From positions 24,224,501-24,288,500 of the forward strand of contig OY754470.1 of NCBI GenBank assembly GCA_963575645.1: a stretch of 64,000 nucleotides of DNA, given 5' to 3'. The stretch is from Xanthostigma xanthostigma. Its lineage: Eukaryota > Arthropoda > Insecta > Raphidioptera > Raphidiidae. This document shows, piece after piece, positions 11,283 to 63,610 of the stretch. The first letter of the stretch is position 1. Every line of letters starts with the position of its first letter. The translations under genes were made by a program, and so were the position numbers. The notes beneath the pieces were generated by a model that saw nothing but the letters and a program-made list of their open reading frames with translations, had not been told where the DNA came from and searched no databases.

Positions 11283-12188
11283 TTAAGGACGTAGTCTGGT
11301 GTTCGGGTTTTGAAAAAACGAATTTATTTTTTTTACATTTTAAGTAAGTATATTATATTGAGAAAATACTGTAAAAATTTTAGACCGAAATATTAAATAT
11401 TTACAAAGTTATAGCATAGAGTCGAGAGCAGCAACGGTCTTACGGTAAGACTCTTACCTGCTCTTACCTCTCAATTGTTATCACGTTACCCTTATACTCT
11501 CGCAGAGTAGAGCAAACAAATTAGCAGAAAACGATGCCTTTGAAGAAACGGAAGGTTTACTATACACCAGGCATAGCTGATTAGTGTAAATACTCATTTT
11601 TATTTTTTTGCAAGAAATCTGAAATTAAAACTTTAAACGCGTTTTTCTCAAAACTACGTTTTTCTAAGCGGCGCGGGTGATTGAAACAATTGTATACAAC
11701 CGATTGCTTTCAGTTTTTCACAGGGTATTCTACACAACAATAGCTCCGTCCGGTACTAGAATTACTTAATTATAAAAATTATTTCTATTTTTTTTAACCG
11801 ATTTTCAACGAAAAAATCACGATTTTCTCGTTGTTTTTTTTCTAAAACCCGCCATTTTGTTATTTATCAATAAAAATGTTTATTTCTAGTACGGGATAGA
11901 GCCACAAGCCTACGAAACAATAACCAATTTAATTTTTATAATTCAGTTGACTCCAAGTGACGTTATCACCCGCGCTACCCACCTACCTCCATTTAAAGTT
12001 GTCTATTTTAGGTTAAAAAAACAATTATAAAATGGAGTAAAATTAAGCAAAAAAAATTTTTTTTCTTAGTTTACGATGTCAGTAAAAACATGTAACAAAA
12101 TTGAAAACATCGTACATTATTTTGACATTAAAAAAAAATTCTGAAATAACGGTTGAAAACGAGCTTGAACATAGGACTACGTCCTTAA
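11283..12188. repeat. TTAA-flanked element family A, copy 1 (906 bp)
   Basis: Starts TTAAGGACGTAGTC and ends GACTACGTCCTTAA, a perfect 14-nt inverse including TTAA on both sides. The body matches 27954-28842 and 40616-41494 along its length, with shared blocks such as AGCAACGGTCTTACGGTAAG. TTAA duplication is the hallmark of piggyBac-type insertion, but the ends do not look like typical piggyBac termini and no transposase is encoded. A short ORF MPLKKRKVYYTPGIAD at 11533 is broken in the other copies. Confidence 0.85.
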
Positions 12189-15833: not shown

Positions 15834-16196
15834 TCTTTTATAAAACAACTGATTTTCACATCATAATAATATATTTGTAATATTTTTGGATAGTTCAGTT
15901 CAGCCAAATTGGAATATGACGATTGTAGGTATACGAGTACTATGCTGTTTCTTCTCATTTCCCATTTAAATGGCAACTGACAGACATTACTATTGGATTG
16001 GTAAAATTGAATTACTTTTATTTTGCTTTACGCACTGGTACAAAAAAGGATAATTTTACAAGTTCTGTACATGAAAAGCATCTATTTTAAAGAGGATCGT
16101 GCATAAAAATCTTTAATTCCTAGGTTGTTATGAGCCTATTCATTGTGAAACACAAAGTGTCTTCATACTGCATACAAATCTTACACAAAGCTATTA

Positions 16197-17390
16197 TTCA
16201 AAGCAATGGCACGTCAATCCGGTGTCGGAAAGGCAACCGGATGGCGAGTGGTAATCTGGGCCTATGAGTGGAGCAGAACCCCCTAGTAGCGGCCAAAGTG
16301 ACCCCAAATGGACGGGGGCGGCGATATGGGGGTGGGGCAAAATCGAAAAAAGTTTGAAAAGGCAACCGGATAAAAATGCGGTTGCATTGAAGGAAATACC
16401 CTAATTATATAATAAATTTTTTTTGCCATCCGAAACACGCGGGCCGTTTTTGCACTAGCGAATAAAAAAAAAATTTTAAAAAAACTGAAAAGGCAACCGC
16501 TTCAAAATTAGTGAGCATACTTATTGCCACCACCAAAAGTTGGAAAAAAATTGCCATCCGATCCTGATGGGCAGTTTCGGGAAACAACCCCTCAAAGTCG
16601 CCGAAAAACCCTTTTTTTCGATTTTTTCAACAATAAGTAAAAAAAATACACTAAAAATTGTTCAAATCGGATGGCATTCGAAATTTATACTGTCCTAAGT
16701 ACAAATAATAGTGTGTATCAATGCCATCCGATTTCGATTAAATTTAGCCACCCCCCAAACTCATAAAAATAACAATTTTATGCAGCGTATGGCATTATTT
16801 TTATTGTTATTGAGTTTTGGAGGTTGGCTAAATAGGGGTAAATTTAATAAAAATCGGATGGCATTGATACACACTATTATTTGTACTTAGGACAGTATAA
16901 ATTTCGAATGCCATCCGATTTGAACATTTTTTAGTGTGTTTTTTTTACTTATTGTTGAAAAAATCGAAAAAAAAGGTTTTTCGGCGACTTTGAGGGGTTG
17001 TTTCTCCGAAACTGCCCATCAGGATCGGATGGCAATTTTTTTCCAACGTTTGGTGGTGTCAATAAGTATGCTCACTAATTTTGAAGCGGTTGCCTTTTCA
17101 GTTTTTTTAAAAATTTTTTTTTATTCGCTAGTGCAAAAACGGCCCGCGTGTTTCGGATGGCAAAAAAAATTTATTATATAATTAGGGTATTTCCTTCAAT
17201 GCAACCGCATTTTTATCCGGTTGCCTTTTCAAACTTTTTTCGATTTTGCCCCACCCCCATATCGCCGCCCCCGTCCATTTGGGGTCACTTTGGCCGCTAC
17301 CAGGGGGTTCTGCACCACTCATAGGCCCAGATTACCACTCGCCATCCGGTTGCCTCTCCAACACCGGATTGACGTGCCATTGCTTTGAAT
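16197..17390. repeat. 1.2-kb foldback element
   Basis: Two arms of about 588 bp, near-perfect inverse copies, around a 20-base centre at about 16784-16802. Ends ATTCAAAGCAATGGCACG / CGTGCCATTGCTTTGAAT with T and A just outside (possible TA target). Repeated GGCAACCGGAT and GCCATCCG motifs lie in both arms. The ORFs in the two arms are mirror images and differ by a few residues. No transposase similarity recognised. Confidence 0.88.
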
Positions 17391-17602
17391 ATATAGCAAC
17401 CTTAAACAAAAGGTCATTCGTTGTCACATATCGTTTATATAATACAGCAACTCTAATAAATTATTGCACTTCAACGAATCGTTCAATTTTAGATTTGTTA
17501 CGTATGCGTATTTTCGTTCTGCAATGTGCATAAAAAAATTTTACGAAAGCGGTGTCAATGCTGTTTTTATGAAATTTGATTCACGCAACTGATCACAGAC
17601 TC

Positions 17603-24630: not shown

Positions 24631-25430
24631 ATTTTATAGTAGTTATCATCATTTTTAGCTCCCCACAAATAAGCAAAAAATACTTCTGTAAGTCTGACTT
24701 TTCTCAAATTTCAAGTCGATAGCGGAATTTTTAATTTCTGAGAAAATCGACTATTCTTTACAGACAGACAGACAATGAAGTTTCATCATAAGGCTTCCGA
24801 TTTTTACCATTTTATGGTTTTAGTACCGAGCCCAAGAACGTATTGTTTTTAATAAATCTCTTCCAGTAAGTTCAAAAATACAAAAATGTACGTACAGTAT
24901 TTCTTTACATTATAACGTGGTATTATCATGTAAACCGTTCAAATTTTGAACCTGTGACTTATAATATTTAAAAGCGGCGTAAAATATCTCCTATATTAAA
25001 ATTCGTTGTAATTTATTACCTTTTAAATCCTGCGAGAGATTACACTGTTCATGGGTTGGTTGTTTTTGTCTCATGAGAGATCGCAGCAGGAATGGTGTGA
25101 AATGGGATTTGTAAGCCTACCACACACGCATGTACGTGTCTTAAAGTTGGGATCCCTGTTATTTCCCCTAAGCTCCAAACGATTTTAACGAGAAACATTA
25201 TTTGAATTTTCAAGTTATTGTTTGAAAAATATGAAATTTTAAATGCGAATTGACACTACGCCTAGATAGCACTGGTAGCCTGTGGTTTCACGTTTTTTAA
25301 TTAAGAATTAAAAACGTTTTTTAATTATTGTGCCTTTATAGAACAGTGTCGATTCTGATTTTAAATTTTGAGAAAATTTATTCATTTTTTCTAATCATTT
25401 TAATTAACAATAAGCAAATAGATGTTTAAA
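24631..25430. other. unassigned interval
   Basis: 24740-24850 carries a typical insect repeat tail (ACAGACAGACAATGAAG). Otherwise I see nothing. Confidence 0.45.
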
Positions 25431-27953: not shown

Positions 27954-28842
27954 TTAAGGACGTAGTCTGGTGTTCGGGTTTTGAAAAAACGAATTTATTT
28001 TTTTACATTTTTAGTAAGTACAATATATTGAGAAAATACTGTAAAAATTTTAGACCAAAATATTAAATATTTACAAAGCTATAGCATATAGTCGAGAGCA
28101 GCAACGGTCTTACGGTAAGACTCTTACCTGCTCTTGCCTCTCAATTGTTATCACGTTACCCTTATACTCTCGCAGAGTAGAGCAAACAAATTAACAGAAA
28201 ACGATGCCTTTGAAGAAACGGAAGGTTTAATATACACCAGACATAGCTGATTAGTGTAAATATTCATTTTTATTTTTTTGTAAGAAATCTGAAATTAAAA
28301 TTTTAAAAGCGTTTTTCTAAGTGGCGCGGGTGATTGAAACAATTGCATACAATCGATTGCTTTCAGTTTTGCACAGGGTATTCTACACAACAATAGCTCC
28401 GTCCGGTACTAGAATTACTTAATTATAAAAATTATTTCTATTTTTTTTAACCGATTTTCAACGAAAAAATCACGATTTTCACGTTGTTTTTTTTTCTAAA
28501 ACCCGCCATTTTGTTATTTTTCAATAAAAATGTTTATTTGTAGTACGGGATAGAGCTACAAGCCTACGAAACAATAACCAATTTAATTTTCATAATTCAG
28601 TTGACTCCAAGTGACGTTATCACCCGCGCTACCCACCTACCTCCACTTAAAGTTGTCTACTTTAGGTTAAAAAAACAATTATAAAATGGCGTAAAATTAA
28701 GCAAAAAAAAATGTTTGTCTTCATTTACGATGTCAGTAAAAACATGTAACAAAATTGAAAACATCGTACATTATTTTAATATTAAAAAAAATTTCTGAAA
28801 TAACGGTTGAAAACGAGCACGAATATAGGACTACGTCCTTAA
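27954..28842. repeat. TTAA-flanked element family A, copy 2 (889 bp)
   Basis: Starts TTAAGGACGTAGTC and ends GACTACGTCCTTAA, identical to copy 1. It lacks a short stretch near the middle (ends of AAACGCGTTTTTCTCAAAAC). The short ORF seen in copy 1 has an early stop here. Flanked by the two inverted SINEs. Confidence 0.85.
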
Positions 28843-31969: not shown

Positions 31970-32031
31970 GTTGTTCTGGTGTTCATCCTCAGTATAGCAT
32001 CGCTTATCATCTACTTTATTGACGCCTCAAG
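31970..32031 (+). CDS. slo: slo exon encoding transmembrane segment S1
   Basis: 62-nt internal exon: 20 codons plus two bases (AG) that complete a Ser codon with the next exon. It reads VVLVFILSIASLIIYFIDAS, the S1 helix of Slo1 channels ending in the extracellular S1-S2 loop. The acceptor is TTGTTACAG (31961-31969) and the donor GGTAAAT (GT at 32032). Incoming phase 0, outgoing phase 2. A MITE-like repeat (31552-31881) ends about 88 bp upstream, so the acceptor region has little unique sequence. The preceding exon (S0 and the cytosolic S0-S1 loop) was not found in the window. Confidence 0.95.
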
Positions 32032-40615: not shown

Positions 40616-41494
40616 TTAAGGACGTAGTCTGGTGTTCGGGTTTCGGAAAATCGAATTTATTTTTTTTACATTTTTAGTAAGTATAATATATTGAGAAAAT
40701 ACTGTAAAAATTTTAGACCGAAATATTAAATATTTACAAAGCTATAGCATATAGTCGAGAGCAGCAACGGTCTTACGGTAAGACTCTTACCTGCTCTTAC
40801 CTCTCAATTGTTATCACGTTACCTTTATACTCTCGCAGAGTAGAGCAAAACAATTATCAGAAAACGATGCCTTTGAAGAAACTGAAGGTTTACTATACAC
40901 CAGGCATAGCTGATTGGTGTAATTAATATTCATTTTTATTTTTTTGTAAGAAATCTGAAATCAAAACTTTAAACGCGTTTTTCTCAAAACTACGTTTTTG
41001 TAAGCGGCGCGGGTGATTGAAACAATTGTATACAACCGTTTTCTACACAGCAATAGCTCCATCCAGTACTAGAATTACTTAATTATCAAAATTATTTCTA
41101 TTTTTTTAACCGATTTTTAACGATAAAATCACGATTTTCTCGATGTTTTTTTTTAACCCGCCATTTGTTGTTTATCAATAAAAATGTTTATTTCTAGTAC
41201 GGGATAGAGCCACAAGCCTACGAAACAATAACCAAGTTTATTTTTATAATTCAAATGACTGCAAGTGACGTTATCACCCGCGGTACCCACCTACCTCCAT
41301 TTAAAGTTGTCTACTTTAGATTAAAAAAACTATTATAAAATGGCATAAAATTAAGCAAATAAAATTTTTTTTTCTTAGCTTGCGATGTCAGTAAAAAAAT
41401 GTAACAAAATTGAAATGATTGTACATTATTTTATTATTAAAAAAAATTCTGAAATAAGGGTTGAAACGAGCCTTAACATAGGACTACGTCCTAA
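40616..41494. repeat. TTAA-flanked element family A, copy 3
   Basis: Starts TTAAGGACGTAGTC; ends GACTACGTCCTAAA, so the right TTAA is mutated. It lacks about 20 bp near 41035 present in copy 1. The most diverged of the three copies. Confidence 0.83.
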
Positions 41495-47686: not shown

Positions 47687-47854
47687 TTGGAAAATTCCGG
47701 AGACCCTCTCGACTTCAGCAATCCACAGCAACTGTCGTACTGGACTTGCGTCTATTTCCTAATTGTGACGATGTCTACAGTAGGCTACGGTGACGTTTAC
47801 TGCCAGACAATCCTTGGTCGAACGTTTCTTGTATTTTTCCTTCTTGTTGGCTTG
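47687..47854 (+). CDS. slo: slo exon encoding pore helix, selectivity filter and most of S6
   Basis: 168-nt exon of exactly 56 codons, phase 0 at both ends. It reads [20 protein letters not shown] (turret), [10 protein letters not shown] (pore helix), TVGYGD (filter, 47777-47794), [11 protein letters not shown] and LVFFLLVGL (S6). TVGYGD is the potassium selectivity signature. The acceptor is TTTTAACAG and the donor TTG|GTAAGT at 47855. The first codon TTG is Leu joining the HL of the previous exon, giving the family HLLENSGDP; it is not a start codon. The next exon is one of two alternatives. Confidence 0.98.
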
Positions 47855-53734: not shown

Positions 53735-53820
53735 ATTCAGTAGGTGGCGTTGTTTAAAGTTATAGTGTCCCAATTTAATTCAGTAGGTGGCGTTGTTTAA
53801 AGTTATAGTGTCCCAATTTA
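53735..53820. repeat. perfect tandem duplication, 2 x 43 bp
   Basis: ATTCAGTAGGTGGCGTTGTT...CCCAATTTA occurs at 53735 and again at 53778 without a difference. Very recent duplication or assembly effect. Confidence 0.95.
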
Positions 53821-54000
53821 ATTTTAAAATTATTACCTACTCTATTTTCAACTCTGCCATTATTTTTTAAAATAATTATTAATGTATAAAACAAATAGCT
53901 TCCACATAAATGATTGATCTTTGACACTTTAGCACATCTTTGGGTTGAATTTGCACTTGAGGCTTTTTTGAACACAACCTCCTAAATTAGTTATTAAAAT

Positions 54001-56138: not shown

Positions 56139-56230
56139 GCAATATTTGCCAGTAGCATTCCTGAGATAATAGAGCTCGTAGGCAATAGATCCAAATACAG
56201 TGGAGAATTCAAACGGGAGCATGGAAAGAG
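56139..56230 (+). CDS. slo: slo alternative exon a: end of S6 and S6-RCK1 linker
   Basis: 92-nt exon: 30 codons plus AG that starts an Arg codon finished by the next, unseen exon. It reads AIFASSIPEIIELVGNRSKY then SGEFKREHGK. AIFAS completes S6 after LLVGL. PEIIEL keeps the two glutamates which in vertebrate BK channels form the inner-vestibule charge ring (E321/E324). The NRSKY region is the linker to RCK1. The acceptor is TTTGTTTACAG; the donor is AG|GTATAT, weaker than the GTAAGT donors upstream. Same length and phases as the exon at 63519-63610, which it should replace in mature transcripts. It resembles the usual insect Slo sequence at this site. Confidence 0.95.
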
Positions 56231-57218
56231 GTATATAAACACAATCAACACAAAATAAATGCATTTACATGTTACTTAAAAATGTACGTTGCTTTGGGCG
56301 TTTTCGACTAGCTAATCAAGTCACTGAGTTTCATTTTATCTACAAACTTAAAATCTTTTCTTTCGCCCATTTTAAAATGAAATGGTCTCCTCCTATGTCT
56401 CCCAATTGTTCATTACCTTTGTCAAAAAGATGCCCTTAAAACAATTAAATATTATATCACTAACGAAATTTGTAATGCATTGCAAAAATTATATCAGGAT
56501 TTTAATAATCGCGAATTAATACTTTCATAACCTAAAACCTGAAGTTCATATCAATTAGTTTCAAATGAAATCGGTTATTGTAACCACTCTATCAACGTAG
56601 GTTCACTGAACTGAATAGGAAAAATGAAATCGTGACGTCATTAAAATGAACGGGTCTACATAATCCCAATGACTTCACAATAGTAATTCGAAAACGCCTT
56701 TTATTACTGTTCGTTTGAGCGGGGTAGGATTGAAGCAAGGTTAGTGAATGCACGGGCTGCCTCGTTCCATGAACGACGTCAGCTATCAGCCTTGCAATAT
56801 CAATTAACAGGTTCCTGGATAACGTTATCCCCTACTACTATTCAATGGAGCAAGGTAACCTCTGTATCTACTGACCTTGGGATTGAAGCATGTATTTTTC
56901 TATACGCAGTGCCGCAGTCGAACTTCCATATTATGTCGCTAAATAACCTAAATAAAGAAAGTCGTTTTCCTTCTTTTTCCTTTCTTTTTAAAATCTAATT
57001 ATATATACAAAAATAAATAATTATTTTACGCTTTCGAGAACATTTTATTTCTATTTTAATTAATTTGCTTATGTCTACAACAAAACTCAAAAAAAATTAT
57101 TCATATGTTGTTTGAACAGAGCTAATTTTATCTTCGGCACCTAAGGTAAAAATTAGCTCTCGCATGATGTGAAACAAACAGTTACAAATTGCTATATAAT
57201 AGAATTATTGATTGATGT

Positions 57219-57370
57219 TACTGTGTCACTGTGGAGTAATGTACCTCAGTCCGCCGCGATAGTGGAAAGATTCGGGGTTCGTATCCCGACGGTGACGTTG
57301 TTTGAGAAATATTTTTTTCTAATATAGCGATGTAACAATGGCTGTTTCTTAACAATGTAGCAATAAATAG
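57219..57370 (+). repeat. partial tRNA-like element, relative of 49821-50005
   Basis: Shares CCTCAGTCCGCCGCGATAGT, GGGGTTCGTATCCCGAC (B-box-like) and AGCGATGTAACAATGGCTGT with the earlier copy. The left inverted arm is absent or diverged. Confidence 0.6.
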
Positions 57371-57720
57371 TCGCTGCACTTTAAAGTTACTAATATTGAT
57401 GTCATCCTTTCTTTTAAAGATATCGCTAAGCAAATTTTTTCGTAATATGGAAATTCGACTGCACTTTCATTTTTTGCATATTGGTTCGGTAATCATGATA
57501 AGTTATCGGCTTAATAAAGTCTCAAATAAAATTATCCACTAAAATAGCATACTACATAATACATTCTGAAACTCAAATTTACACATTAAAAATCAGGGCA
57601 GCAACCAGTAAATATCAATATATTTTTATCGTAATTAGACTTCGCCCAGTAAAAAAACATTAAAATCCAGAGTTGCTTAAATGTGACTTGACTAATTTTT
57701 TTTTTGATTCGGTGAGCTGT

Positions 57721-59342
57721 ATACAGGATGATTCAGAAGGAAATGTCAATATTAATTTAGGTACGTATTTGGGGACCCAAAATAAACATAAGAGTTCCTA
57801 AAATCAAGGGTCCTATTCTTAACCGTTACAGAGATACAAAGGTAAACAAAATATTCAAATTAAAATTTTTATTAAATTATTTCTAACAGGTAGGCTAGGT
57901 TTTATAGTTTTCAAAAATGCGACCGTTTACTTCTAAACGCAGGTTTATAGTCTGATGAATAAATATTTTAACAAAAAATTTAATTTGAATATTTTGTTTA
58001 CTCCCGAATCTCTGTAATGGTTTAGGCTAGACGGCGAGGAGTTTTGGGTGTATTTTTCGGGCACAGGCGAGATTATTGTTGGAATCGCTTCGTTTTAGGG
58101 TGTAGTTCAACCCCCTAAGTTTGCTTACAAATTGTTGGTGTGCTTGATTTTATAATTAACAATTAGTGACGAAAATAGTGTTTTTTTTCTCTATTTCCTT
58201 TAATATCTCCGTTCCTCTTGATTTTTAGTATAGGATATGCATTGAGAAAGTTGTTCCTTATGAAATTTCCTAAAAAATGAACACTGACAGAGGTCGCTAA
58301 GTGCAATTTTTAACTTGCAAATAGCCCCGAAAGTTAAAAAGACACGTTTTTTTCACTATTTTTTTACTAAAAACTGACCGCACATAGATGGCTGAAATTT
58401 CTCAAAAATGATGTCGATGTTGACCCAAACATGCATGAATAATTTTAGCGTCATCGGTCAATTACTTGTAGAGTAATTAACGATCACTTTTTTTTGTTTC
58501 CTTAATTGCAAATTGCGCCATTTTTTTCACAAACGGGTTTCGCCGATTTTATAACGATTGAATATTGGAAAAGTTATATGGTTTTATACGTTTGTCTAAA
58601 ATTGGTATCGCTAAAGAAATCGTTATAAAATCGGTTAGAATTATTTTTTTCCAAAAATTCCAACGGGACACTAAAGTTGAATGGATTTGTGATTTTTCTG
58701 GCTTGGTCCGACCAGCGAAACCCGTTTGTGAAAAAAATGGCGCAATTTGCAATTAAGGAAACAGAAAAAAAGTGATCGTTAATTACTCGAGAAGTAATTG
58801 ACCGTTGACGCTAAAATTATTCATGCATGTTTGGATCAACATAGACATCATTTTTGAGAGTTTTCAGTCATCTATGTGCAGTCATTTTTAGTAAAAAATA
58901 GTGAAAAAACGTGTTTTTTAACTTTTGGGGCTATTTGCAAGTTAACAATTTCACTTAGCGACCTCTGTCAGTGCTCATTTTTTAGGAAATTTTATAAGGA
59001 ACAACTTTCTTAATGCATATGCTATACTAAAAGTCAAGAGGAACGGGGATATTAAAGGAAATAGAGAAAAAACACTATTTTCGTCACTAATTGTTAATTA
59101 TAAAATCAAGCACACCTACAATTTGTAAGCAAACTTAGGGGGTTGAACTACACCCTAAAACGAAGCGATTCCAACAATAATCTCGCCTGTGCCCGAATAA
59201 TACACTTTTTAATGTTTTTACCTCCTCGCCGTCTAGCCTAGTTGAGAATATAATCCATGCTTATAGGAACTTTTATGTTTATTTTGGGTCCCCGAAGACG
59301 CACCTAAAATATTGACATTCACTCCTGAATCACTCTGTATAC
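57721..59342. repeat. 1.6-kb foldback element family J
   Basis: Ends TATACAGGATGATTCAG and CTGAATCACTCTGTATA inverse, with a possible TA target. Arms pair over long blocks such as GGGGACCCAAAATAAACATA, CGAGATTATTGTTGGAATCG and AACTACACCCTAAAACGAAG or complements. The centre is near 58640. The left arm is about 200 bp longer because of an insert at 57820-58023. Mirror-image ORFs around 58550-58756 are not credible genes. Confidence 0.87.
57820..58023. repeat. small foldback nested in the left arm of family J
   Basis: Ends AACCGTTACAGAGATAC and ATCTCTGTAATGGTT inverse, with GTAAACAAAATATTCAAATT and its complement inside. The corresponding place in the right arm (about 59235-59260) lacks it. 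Confidence 0.75.
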
Positions 59343-59856
59343 AGTGATACACACAATTTTTACACGTCCGTGTGTACAATTAGAAACATTAGTCAACTGG
59401 AGTAAATCCATATTTAAGGGCGTCTCCGTCTTGTGTTATAAATAGTTACCTGAATCCCAAATTACTTTCGGATCAACAATAATAAGAAAATATAGCAATT
59501 TTCATTTCTTTCTCCACATTTAGTTCAAACTGATTCTTATTTATAATTAACCATTCTCAAATATCCTGATAATCAAAATTTTGAATCTTATAAAATAAAT
59601 TGTGTTAATATATTTTTTAATACCTGCACACTACATTATTCTACAAAGTTAACGCAGGCGCAGTGGAATTCGGCGATTTTCATAGTTCAGTTAACGACAT
59701 AGCGTAAAAAAGATCAGGATAAAAACGTGTAGGTTTGGGAAAAAATGTCTATCTCTGTCAGATACATTATACGTAATATTCTGCTGTTGTCAAACTATGA
59801 TAATAAATTATGATTTATAGAATAAATATTTCAATAAGAAAATATTTATAAAGTCA

Positions 59857-60160
59857 CTAGCTGCCCGTCCCGATTTCACCCGTGTGCGATAGATATAATT
59901 CTGCAAAACGTATTTCGTTTGGGGTCCGGCGTCTGAACTAATATCTTGGAACAAATTCTACCAGATTTGCTTATGAACTAATAACTTTAAGCGAATTCTA
60001 TCAGATGTCGCTACATGTTACTAAAACAGTTTTTTTTCACAAAACACCGTAATTCTGTACAAAATATTTAATAAAAACTATCCTATATAGTTGTACCATT
60101 TACAAAATTTCATTAAAATCGGTTCAGTGGTTTCGGAGATTTTTATATAATATATAGAGA
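59857..60160 (-). mobile_element. Helitron, minus orientation, clean ends
   Basis: On + it reads A|CTAGCTGCCCGTCCCGATTT ... TTATATAATATATAGAGA|T; reversed, A|TCTCTATATATTATATAAAA ... CTAG|T. About 304 bp, non-coding. Related to the degraded copy at 6079-6490. Confidence 0.78.
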
Positions 60161-63100
60161 TATAACATTTTTTTGTTATAACAAAATACGTGTATGTTAC
60201 AAGATACTTCCACTAGTCTCATTGATTCAATCACTTTGGCGACGAACGTTAAAGAAATCCTGACCGGTTACCAGGGACGCTTACGATTCGATTGTATAAT
60301 CAGGCGCCAAATGGCCGCCAAAGAAAGTATTCGAAAAAACAACAGAATCGTGTAAATATGCTATCCGATTCGGTTAAAATATAATTTCGGTTAATCCATA
60401 TATTAATTAACTATATGAATCATTGTCTATCTACTCAATGTGCGGTGAGTGAACGCAACAAAGCTTATCGAAAATATATCTGCACTCTTTCTTCGATATA
60501 ATTTCCTGATTTCTCCGATGATAGGATTGGTTGATGTACTTGCATTCAATCTGAATAAAGTATCTCTGTTTCAAAAACTTTGTCTTTTTCTATGACGTTA
60601 ACATGGGCGTACCCAGCTTTTGGCCCAGAAGGGGGCAAATTAGAAATTTCTTAAGCCGGATCCCCCGTGCTTGTTTTGCCCACCTGAATACGCCAGTGCT
60701 TACGCCGTAAAAAAAGACAGAAGTATATGTTTGCTCCCTAATAGTTCGATTGCGATTTTATTCCTATGCTCAGTATAGAATAAAAGTATACGGGTTAATC
60801 ATACCGTAAGTACAGTATGCACGGGTGTTAGCCTAGAGAACGTTGTTAGAAGCTACTTAAACCCGCTACTTCTTAGTTCTTACCCTCAGTTGCCGCTGCA
60901 ACCTGAAAATTGTCTGATTCCACTACCGCAACTGTGAAATACAAACACCACACATTACAGACGAAATGATAACATGTTTGTTATAGCACAACACCTTTTC
61001 TAAACGGGTATTTTTTGCACAATCTGTTTAGTGGTTTTCATATGTATCTATTTCTGCACTTAAAAGTAAGTTTTTATGTTTTAGAAATGTATTATGCTAG
61101 TTTTTGTAACGCTTATTTTAGGATTTTTGTAATTATTATACACTGAAAACATAATTAAATTATTACAAGAAGAAAACAAATGAAAAAGGAATCATTATAT
61201 TTTTTTGTTACAGGAAAATACGCATTTTCGTATTTAAATACCGATAACATTTTCATTGAAATTAAAATCGTAATTTGTTTCTTGCAATCCAAAACTTGCA
61301 GTTCGAAAACTTTTGTATTATTGTCGATACCATGAGAATTAAATATTTTTAATTATTTGACGAGTAATTAATAGTAATTTATTAAAAAGATTAAATCCAA
61401 TAACTTAGCTTACCATTTCTCTAAAGTCTAAATAATCCACAATTCAAATAATAATTTGCTGTCTAGAATTTTCATTTGATTTTTTCTAGTACATTAACAC
61501 GAAAATAACATTACGTTTAACATACCTACTTATGCATGACTTAATAATACTCTATTTAAAGAAAAAGAAAATCAAATCAATTAATTTATATTTAAAAAAT
61601 CAAAATTTAATACAGTAAACATAATAATGTATATTATGTACTGCCACAACAAAATAAAACAAATGTAAACAAATTTTAATATCTAAAAAAAACTTACAAT
61701 AACAACTACATTTTCATTATGTAAGAAAAAATTATGCACGTTACTTACGTTATAGTGTACTGTTTTTTTTTATTTTTGATTTCTCAGCGGTAACAATATT
61801 GCACTGGTTAGATATATAAATTTGCTCTAAAATAATTTATTTTTTTAACAGTGATTCCGGCCATTTATAAGGTGTCTATTTAAACATTGTTTACAAATTA
61901 CAAAATATTAAATAAGTTAAAACCTCATTTTGATTAAATATCTAAAAGACATTTTTGTAAACAATTATTAATTTCAATGTTCAAGCGTAGATAAAACAAA
62001 AAATAATGTGTAAATTGAATTATGAGCTGCTTTAGTACTGAATTTTTGTAGAAATGTTAAAAAAAATTATTAGAATATGTTTTGATATTACACAAAGATG
62101 GACGAATATATAATATGTAGATAACATTTCTAAAAAAAAATTATCGCTATTGATTTCGCGAACCACTATTTTTGTCTTTTAAAAATCATATTTTACAATA
62201 AAGTTTAAAACCATAGATCTTTCATAGGTTTTATTAGAGTCTTATTTCTAAATAAACAAATATAAAAATGAGTATTTAAGTTTCTAGCACTGTTCTGAAG
62301 ATTCAAATGGCCTCAATTGAGCGCCTGTACTAATCCGTAACCTCTCTCTTTCTCTCCACTATTTTATATAAATTATTTTTGAGCAACAAGCAACCAATGG
62401 TAGAAATAAAAAATATATTTTAACTTATTATATGTGTTCTTTGCACGCCTGAAATTCTGACTAAGTTGTACAACGCAAAATTCCACGAGTTTATAGCTGT
62501 ATGCAACGAGAATGCAAATCGATACTCAGCTGTTTAGCGTCTATAATCTACAATCGATGCTTCCGAACATCGTCATCGACAAAATTTATTTCACATCTTA
62601 CCTAATTTGACTTTAAACAAATTTTGCGAATTTATTTAAAGTTGAATTGTTCGTTTGCTATCACATCTATAAACTCGTCCAGCAGTAGCGTCATATAATT
62701 AAGTTGGGACATTGAATATGTGATCAACACTTATCATAGATTAAAATAATTTTCAAAAGTATTTTGACAGTTTTATTAATTTATTCGGATTGTAGTTTTG
62801 AATATTTTAATTGTGGACTGCACAGTGCACATGGGTTTGGCTAATGAATAATGATGCACTAACTTGTCTGCTGTCCCCTTTCCTGGCATTTTAATTTCTT
62901 ATCACTTCTACTAAACATTTTCATTCTACATCACCTCAATATAATATATGTAAAATTTGGCTGAATAATGTTTTTATTTTTCCCTCACTATCCTGAAATA
63001 GAAACAATAATTTCGATTACAATTTTCCTCTTAGGTAGTATTTTAGATACAAGGTATTTTTCTTTCTCACGATAAGATTTATTTCGCAAGAATGGATGAA

Positions 63101-63518
63101 TAACTACTATATTACTTTAGACGACTAAAAGCACTAGCAATATTAGTTTGTATTTTTAATGTAATGATGAATTGCTTTCATAAAATACAACAAAACTACT
63201 TAATATACGTTCAAATTGCTTCAAGGGTAACTTTTTCAATCTCAGATGGCGCACATTAGTGATCAGAACAAATTGCTGACTAATCGATAGTCTGTTTGCT
63301 GCATCATTTGAAGTTGAGGAAACAGCTCTTGAAGAAATATTGAACGCATAAACATTATGTCGATTTTTGTTTAATTTTAATAACAACAATGACTATATTA
63401 GTGCCGAATTTAGTGCATATTATGTTGGTGCTTTTGTATGTAATTCGACAATATGGTATACGAATGATTGCGATTGAGTGTCAGAAGTGGGATAGTCAAT
63501 GTGGCTTATGTGGTGTAG

Positions 63519-63610
63519 GCCGTGTTTGCCAGCTGGATACCCGAGATCACGGAGCTCGCTGCCAATCGACCCAAGTACGGGGGCAAATACAGCAAAGACG
63601 TGCGCCGCAG
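63519..63610 (+). CDS. slo: slo alternative exon b: end of S6 and S6-RCK1 linker
   Basis: 92-nt exon with the same phases (0 in, 2 out) as exon a. It reads AVFASWIPEITELAANRPKY then GGKYSKDVRR. It matches exon a at 15 of 30 residues, keeping FAS, IPEI, EL, NR, KY and a Gly, while the second half diverges. Both vestibule glutamates are kept, and a Pro replaces Ser before the linker Lys. The acceptor GTGTAG follows a purine- and G-rich stretch with almost no pyrimidine tract; the donor is AG|GTATTA. GC is 56/92 and GC at third positions 23/30, against 39/92 and 12/30 in exon a. Insect slo is known for heavy alternative splicing; whether this is one of the named Drosophila sites I cannot confirm. 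Confidence 0.9.

Follow-up and report, generated by a model that had tools for sequence, protein, structure and literature searches.

Two alternative exons for the S6 end and S6–RCK1 linker of slowpoke in Xanthostigma xanthostigma, probably spliced mutually exclusively

Introduction

The slowpoke gene of the raphidiid Xanthostigma xanthostigma raises the question of whether a Slo1 (BK) channel gene selects between two exons for the segment that joins its pore to its calcium-sensing gating ring, and of what such a selection would change in the channel. We analyzed a window of 64,000 nt (contig OY754470.1, forward-strand positions 24,224,501 to 24,288,500; coordinates below count from its first letter). 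In this window, a sequence-only reading had noted two similar exons following the pore exon and proposed that they swap the S6–RCK1 linker. Our preferred explanation, to which we assign a probability of about 0.88, is that these exons, a and b, stem from an old tandem duplication of one slowpoke exon and that their splicing is mutually exclusive, with the choice retuning gating.

The gene and its exons

Judged by its sequence, the window holds, on its + strand, the 5′ part of a slowpoke/Slo1 BK channel gene. A tblastn search with mouse Slo1 returned collinear segments at 31970, 43014, 45782, 46002 and 47687 that span S1 to S6, and each upstream slo exon detected in this way occurs in one copy within the window. 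Past the segment of the S6–RCK1 exon, the same search gave nothing better than E 0.64, which puts the RCK1 exon outside the window. The pore exon is bordered by an acceptor (...TTTTAACAG) and a donor (GTAAGTTC), and the locus encodes the hallmarks of Slo1, a Slo1 pore sequence and S6 with the TVGYGD filter. When the pore exon was joined to exon a or exon b and compared with solved structures, Slo1 chains took the top 22 places both times. For both joins, Drosophila Slo isoform J (7pxe) ranks first among the solved structures, with E 4.1e-43 for pore+a and 7.8e-40 for pore+b, and it is the sole insect Slo among the solved-structure matches listed. Two claims of the sequence-only reading are thus supported: the gene is slowpoke, and both exons lie downstream of its pore exon.

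Table 1. Coding exons of the slowpoke gene discussed here, and the intron between the alternative exons (window coordinates).
Feature	Position	Strand	Details
Upstream coding exon, S4–S5 segment	46002..46154	+	tblastn with mouse Slo1, E 9e-19, and translation; left border approximate; donor GTATGTAT
Pore exon: turret, pore helix, TVGYGDVY filter, start of S6	47687..47854	+	56 codons, phase 0/0; tblastn and translation
Alternative exon a: S6 end and S6–RCK1 linker	56139..56230	+	92 nt, 30 codons + 2 nt; peptide AIFASSIPEIIELVGNRSKYSGEFKREHGK
Intron separating exons a and b	56231..63518	+	7,288 bases, from exon borders
Alternative exon b: segment equivalent to a	63519..63610	+	92 nt, 30 codons + 2 nt; peptide AVFASWIPEITELAANRPKYGGKYSKDVRR

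Several repeats were also seen in the window. A near-perfect inverted repeat at 16195–17391 has arms of 397 nt that are 97% complementary and spaced 403 nt apart; it contains further paired arms (16581–16749 and 16836–17004) and resembles a foldback element within an upstream intron. Three dispersed direct copies (11306–12133, 27976–28787 and 40639–41441), which agree at 93% over their first 300 nt and at 95% and 77% with the reference copy over another 300 nt, appear to be recent insertions, as does a 282-nt stretch at 1815 that recurs without a difference at 25430. The intron ahead of exon a holds a 43-base tandem repeat (53735–53823; 2.1 copies, 100% matches). A foldback inside the intron between a and b, with arms of 197 nt (58180–58376 and 58879–59075) that are 86% complementary and 502 nt apart, is probably the remnant of a mobile element.

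An exon pair of equal length and phase

AG precedes and GT follows each of exons a and b, and both enter in phase 0 and exit in phase 2 with the same partial codon, AG. Their peptides are identical at 15 of 30 residues, a value not attained in 200,000 shuffles of peptide b (the best shuffle gave 11), and tblastn of exon a against the window returned exon b at E 1.5e-7. At the DNA level, 56 of 92 bases are identical, and eight of the 15 common residues are encoded by differing codons. Length and borders would mean little alone, since AG and GT lie 92 nt apart at 286 places in the window, 54 of them open in phase 0; it is the homology that carries the case. A BLOSUM62 scan of 30-codon frames and tblastn, covering both strands of the window, found no third copy of the exon: in the scan, the self matches of b and a scored 158 and 151, and the next best frame, which contains stops, scored 25. 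The two are thus homologous neighbors that agree in length and phase and have intact splice sites, the features by which a mutually exclusive pair is recognized. The borders, phases, identity and 7.3-kb spacing given in the sequence-only reading were all reproduced.

The length of the exons ties their choice to the reading frame. As 92 nt is not a multiple of three, the frame is shifted when a transcript has neither exon (0 nt) or both of them (184 nt), and is kept with exactly one. This earlier argument is arithmetically correct, and with the RCK1 exon outside the window, the outcome of skipping or double inclusion rests here on that arithmetic. In the shifted frame of a pore+a+b join, no stop is present inside exon b, so quality control of double inclusion would depend on stops in RCK1.

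The residues exchanged

The exons correspond to residues 327–356 of 7pxe, and to human residues 313–342 as numbered from the chain positions of 6v22. With the limits given for the Drosophila Slo linker, 341–354 (PMC8660915), the alignment to 7pxe assigns the first 14 of the 30 residues to the end of S6. Exons a and b share 10 of 14 residues in the S6 end, five of 14 in the linker and neither of the last two, and their S6–RCK1 linkers are equal in length. The proposal that the pair swaps this linker was too narrow in that the end of the S6 helix differs as well, at four of 14 residues.

In human numbering, E321, E324, R329, K331, Y332 and G334 are common to both exons. The vestibule glutamates, which align with human E321 and E324, are thus kept in both, as had been claimed. 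Exon b further retains S317, P320 and I322 and contains no stop. The differences between a and b include Ser/Trp at 318, Ile/Thr at 323, Gly/Ala at 327, Ser/Pro at 330 and Ser/Gly at 333. Over residues 341–356 (7pxe numbering), exon a carries a net charge of +3 and exon b one of +5, compared with +4 in fly isoform J, +4 in human and +6 in Aplysia.

Exon a is identical to fly isoform J at 19 of 30 residues and to human Slo1 at 17. Exon b matches human Slo1 at 18, fly isoform J at 15 and Aplysia at 15. Its closer match to isoform J (19 vs 15) suggests that exon a corresponds to the fly J exon. The divergence of exon b appears similar to that of orthologues between phyla. Exon b is equally far from a and from fly J (15 of 30 each) and shares 18 of 30 residues with human, which suggests that both copies are under constraint and that the duplication is old, although 30 residues cannot date it.

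Known exon swaps in Slo1 genes

Vertebrates are already known to swap this piece of the channel, so the a/b pair chiefly adds a new, well-formed case, some details of which are open to testing. One of the Drosophila slo events presumably is an S6–RCK1 pair. Fodor and Aldrich 2009 is said to be a key paper on the topic.

In mouse Slo1, the alternative exon e9alt is reported to map to the linker that joins S6 to the cytoplasmic domain and to weaken the calcium response strongly (PMC11758846). The half-activation voltages (V1/2) given there for STREX-2 and STREX-2-e9alt (n=4 each, STREX background) are −5.8 vs +74.3 mV at 10 µM calcium, −61.6 vs +41.9 mV at 100 µM calcium and 142.5 vs 145.9 mV without calcium. 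For the STREX-e9alt forms, a leftward shift of 50 mV at zero calcium is also stated (PMC11758846). Like a and b, exons 9 and e9alt of vertebrate KCNMA1 are alternatives for the stretch of the same channel that connects S6 with the cytoplasmic domain. The gating effect was described for e9alt, and the likeness is drawn from its described location; in the pair here, E321 and E324 are kept in both exons. As the exon events of human, fly and worm Slo1 are called distinct (PMC9741552), this likeness is probably convergent.

For Drosophila slo, three tandem-exon events are described, of which one affects calcium sensitivity and another the conductance (PMC9741552, citing Lagrutta 1994), and a mutually exclusive pair, 2a/2b, is reported to alter the cytosolic face and to cycle daily in DN1 neurons (PMC6025963). 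The gene is the same, its events likewise involve tandem exons and isoform J has an a-like segment, but the cited texts, as far as excerpted, do not place the reported events on the S6–RCK1 segment. The a/b pair may be the insect counterpart of a known fly pair. For splice region 4 of slo-1, nematodes, arthropods and vertebrates are reported to have alternative exons whose position is exactly the same (PMC4270693); the excerpted text locates this region directly behind two conserved phosphorylation sites without mention of S6 or RCK1, and region 4 may be a different site. Among the literature matches listed, no insect paper is titled on an S6–RCK1 exon pair; this speaks only weakly for absence, because the search did not extend to the key papers (Adelman 1992, Lagrutta 1994 and Yu 2006). 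Nothing on this exon site appears in the excerpts of PMC5068790, PMC4039745, PMC10834251, PMC3330124, PMC5660682, PMC13423992, PMC7954323, PMC5671578 and PMC10018040. A search for relatives in viral contigs gave five pattern matches, none of them confirmed.

Consequences for gating

We infer that both exons are used, one at a time, and that the choice between them alters the channel. Each exon encodes the cytoplasmic S6 end together with the linker through which force passes from the gating ring, the calcium sensor, to the gate. In BK channels, this C-linker is described as a passive spring and as the sole covalent link of the ring to the pore, and its length is reported to matter for the spring (Niu 2004, as told in PMC4319557). 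Since the linkers of a and b are equal in length, such a length effect is not what changes, and the swap would act through composition: Ser/Trp at 318, Ile/Thr at 323, Gly/Ala at 327, Ser/Pro at 330 and a linker that is two charges more basic in b. The likely effect would be an altered coupling of calcium and voltage to opening, with the vestibule glutamates retained. Retuned gating is plausible because mouse e9alt, described for the same linker, strongly changes the calcium response, and by this analogy an effect on calcium coupling similar to that of e9alt appears the most likely consequence. A change in conductance, for which one of the three Drosophila events is the precedent, is less likely, because the glutamates are kept in both exons.

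One of the changed residues also allows a second reading. In the alignment, the residue at the position of human Y318 and fly C332 is small in a (Ser), as it is in fly isoform J (Cys), and aromatic in b (Trp), as it is in human (Tyr) and Aplysia (Phe). A review names Y318 as the site of omega-3 fatty acid action (PMC4319557), and fly C332 is reported to line the verruculogen pocket (PMC8660915). Because the Ser/Trp change sits at this position, exon choice could conceivably switch pore pharmacology and lipid sensing, beyond calcium coupling, an extension that we regard as doubtful.

Splicing of the pair and alternative explanations

Exon b might instead be a silent, recently decaying copy, with exon a alone in use. 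Such a reading would draw on the weak acceptor of b, with nine pyrimidines among the 18 positions from −20 to −3 (a has 12 and the pore exon 10), and on the a-like segment of isoform J, the one insect Slo among the structures listed. Exon b, however, has no stop and no indel, and its donor and acceptor are intact. It keeps residues in common with human or Aplysia Slo despite the 50% divergence of the copies, and its GC content of 0.61, against 0.32 for the window, indicates no drift to background. Decay is unlikely given the absence of stops and the retained residues listed above in human numbering, and we consider this reading very improbable. That a and b belong to two tandem gene copies, or reflect an assembly duplication, is barely credible: nothing was found in its favor beyond the duplication itself, the upstream slo exons are single-copy in the window, and the 36 mismatches in 92 bases speak against an assembly artefact.

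Some features weigh against the preferred explanation of a mutually exclusive pair: the acceptor of b is weak, the donors of a and b both deviate from GTAAGT, the flanks show no outstanding pairing that could enforce exclusivity (below), and double inclusion meets no stop inside b. Under that explanation, the weak acceptor of b would fit a default use of a, with b requiring an activator. Neither TGCATG nor GCATG occurs within 200 nt of a or b. As raw counts, TGTGT and GTGTG occur twice each upstream of a and not upstream of b. Exclusivity may be less than strict, with abundant transcripts that include both exons or neither serving as a frame-shifting off switch. The separation of 7.3 kb is too large for the steric block that acts between close neighbors, and no enforcing RNA pairing was found among ungapped helices in 10 pairs of 300-nt flanks from this one genome (none exceeded the best of 20 shuffles, and one equaled it). 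With exon b free of stops in the shifted frame, a double-inclusion mRNA would moreover run at least to RCK1. Against this, the title of Soom et al. 2008 reportedly calls the vertebrate Slo1 swap of exon 9 and e9alt, at the same site in mouse Slo1, mutually exclusive, and we hold abundant double inclusion or skipping to be quite unlikely.

Implications

As a natural pair with the same linker length, in which nine of 14 linker residues and four of 14 S6-end residues are changed, exons a and b offer a test of composition versus length in the coupling of ring and gate. The Ser/Trp change, at a position reported for both drug and lipid action, gives the pair relevance for compounds acting on insect Slo. 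If the doubtful lipid and toxin reading were true, exon b would make channels responsive to polyunsaturated lipids and resistant to verruculogen-type blockers, properties that a cell would select by splicing.
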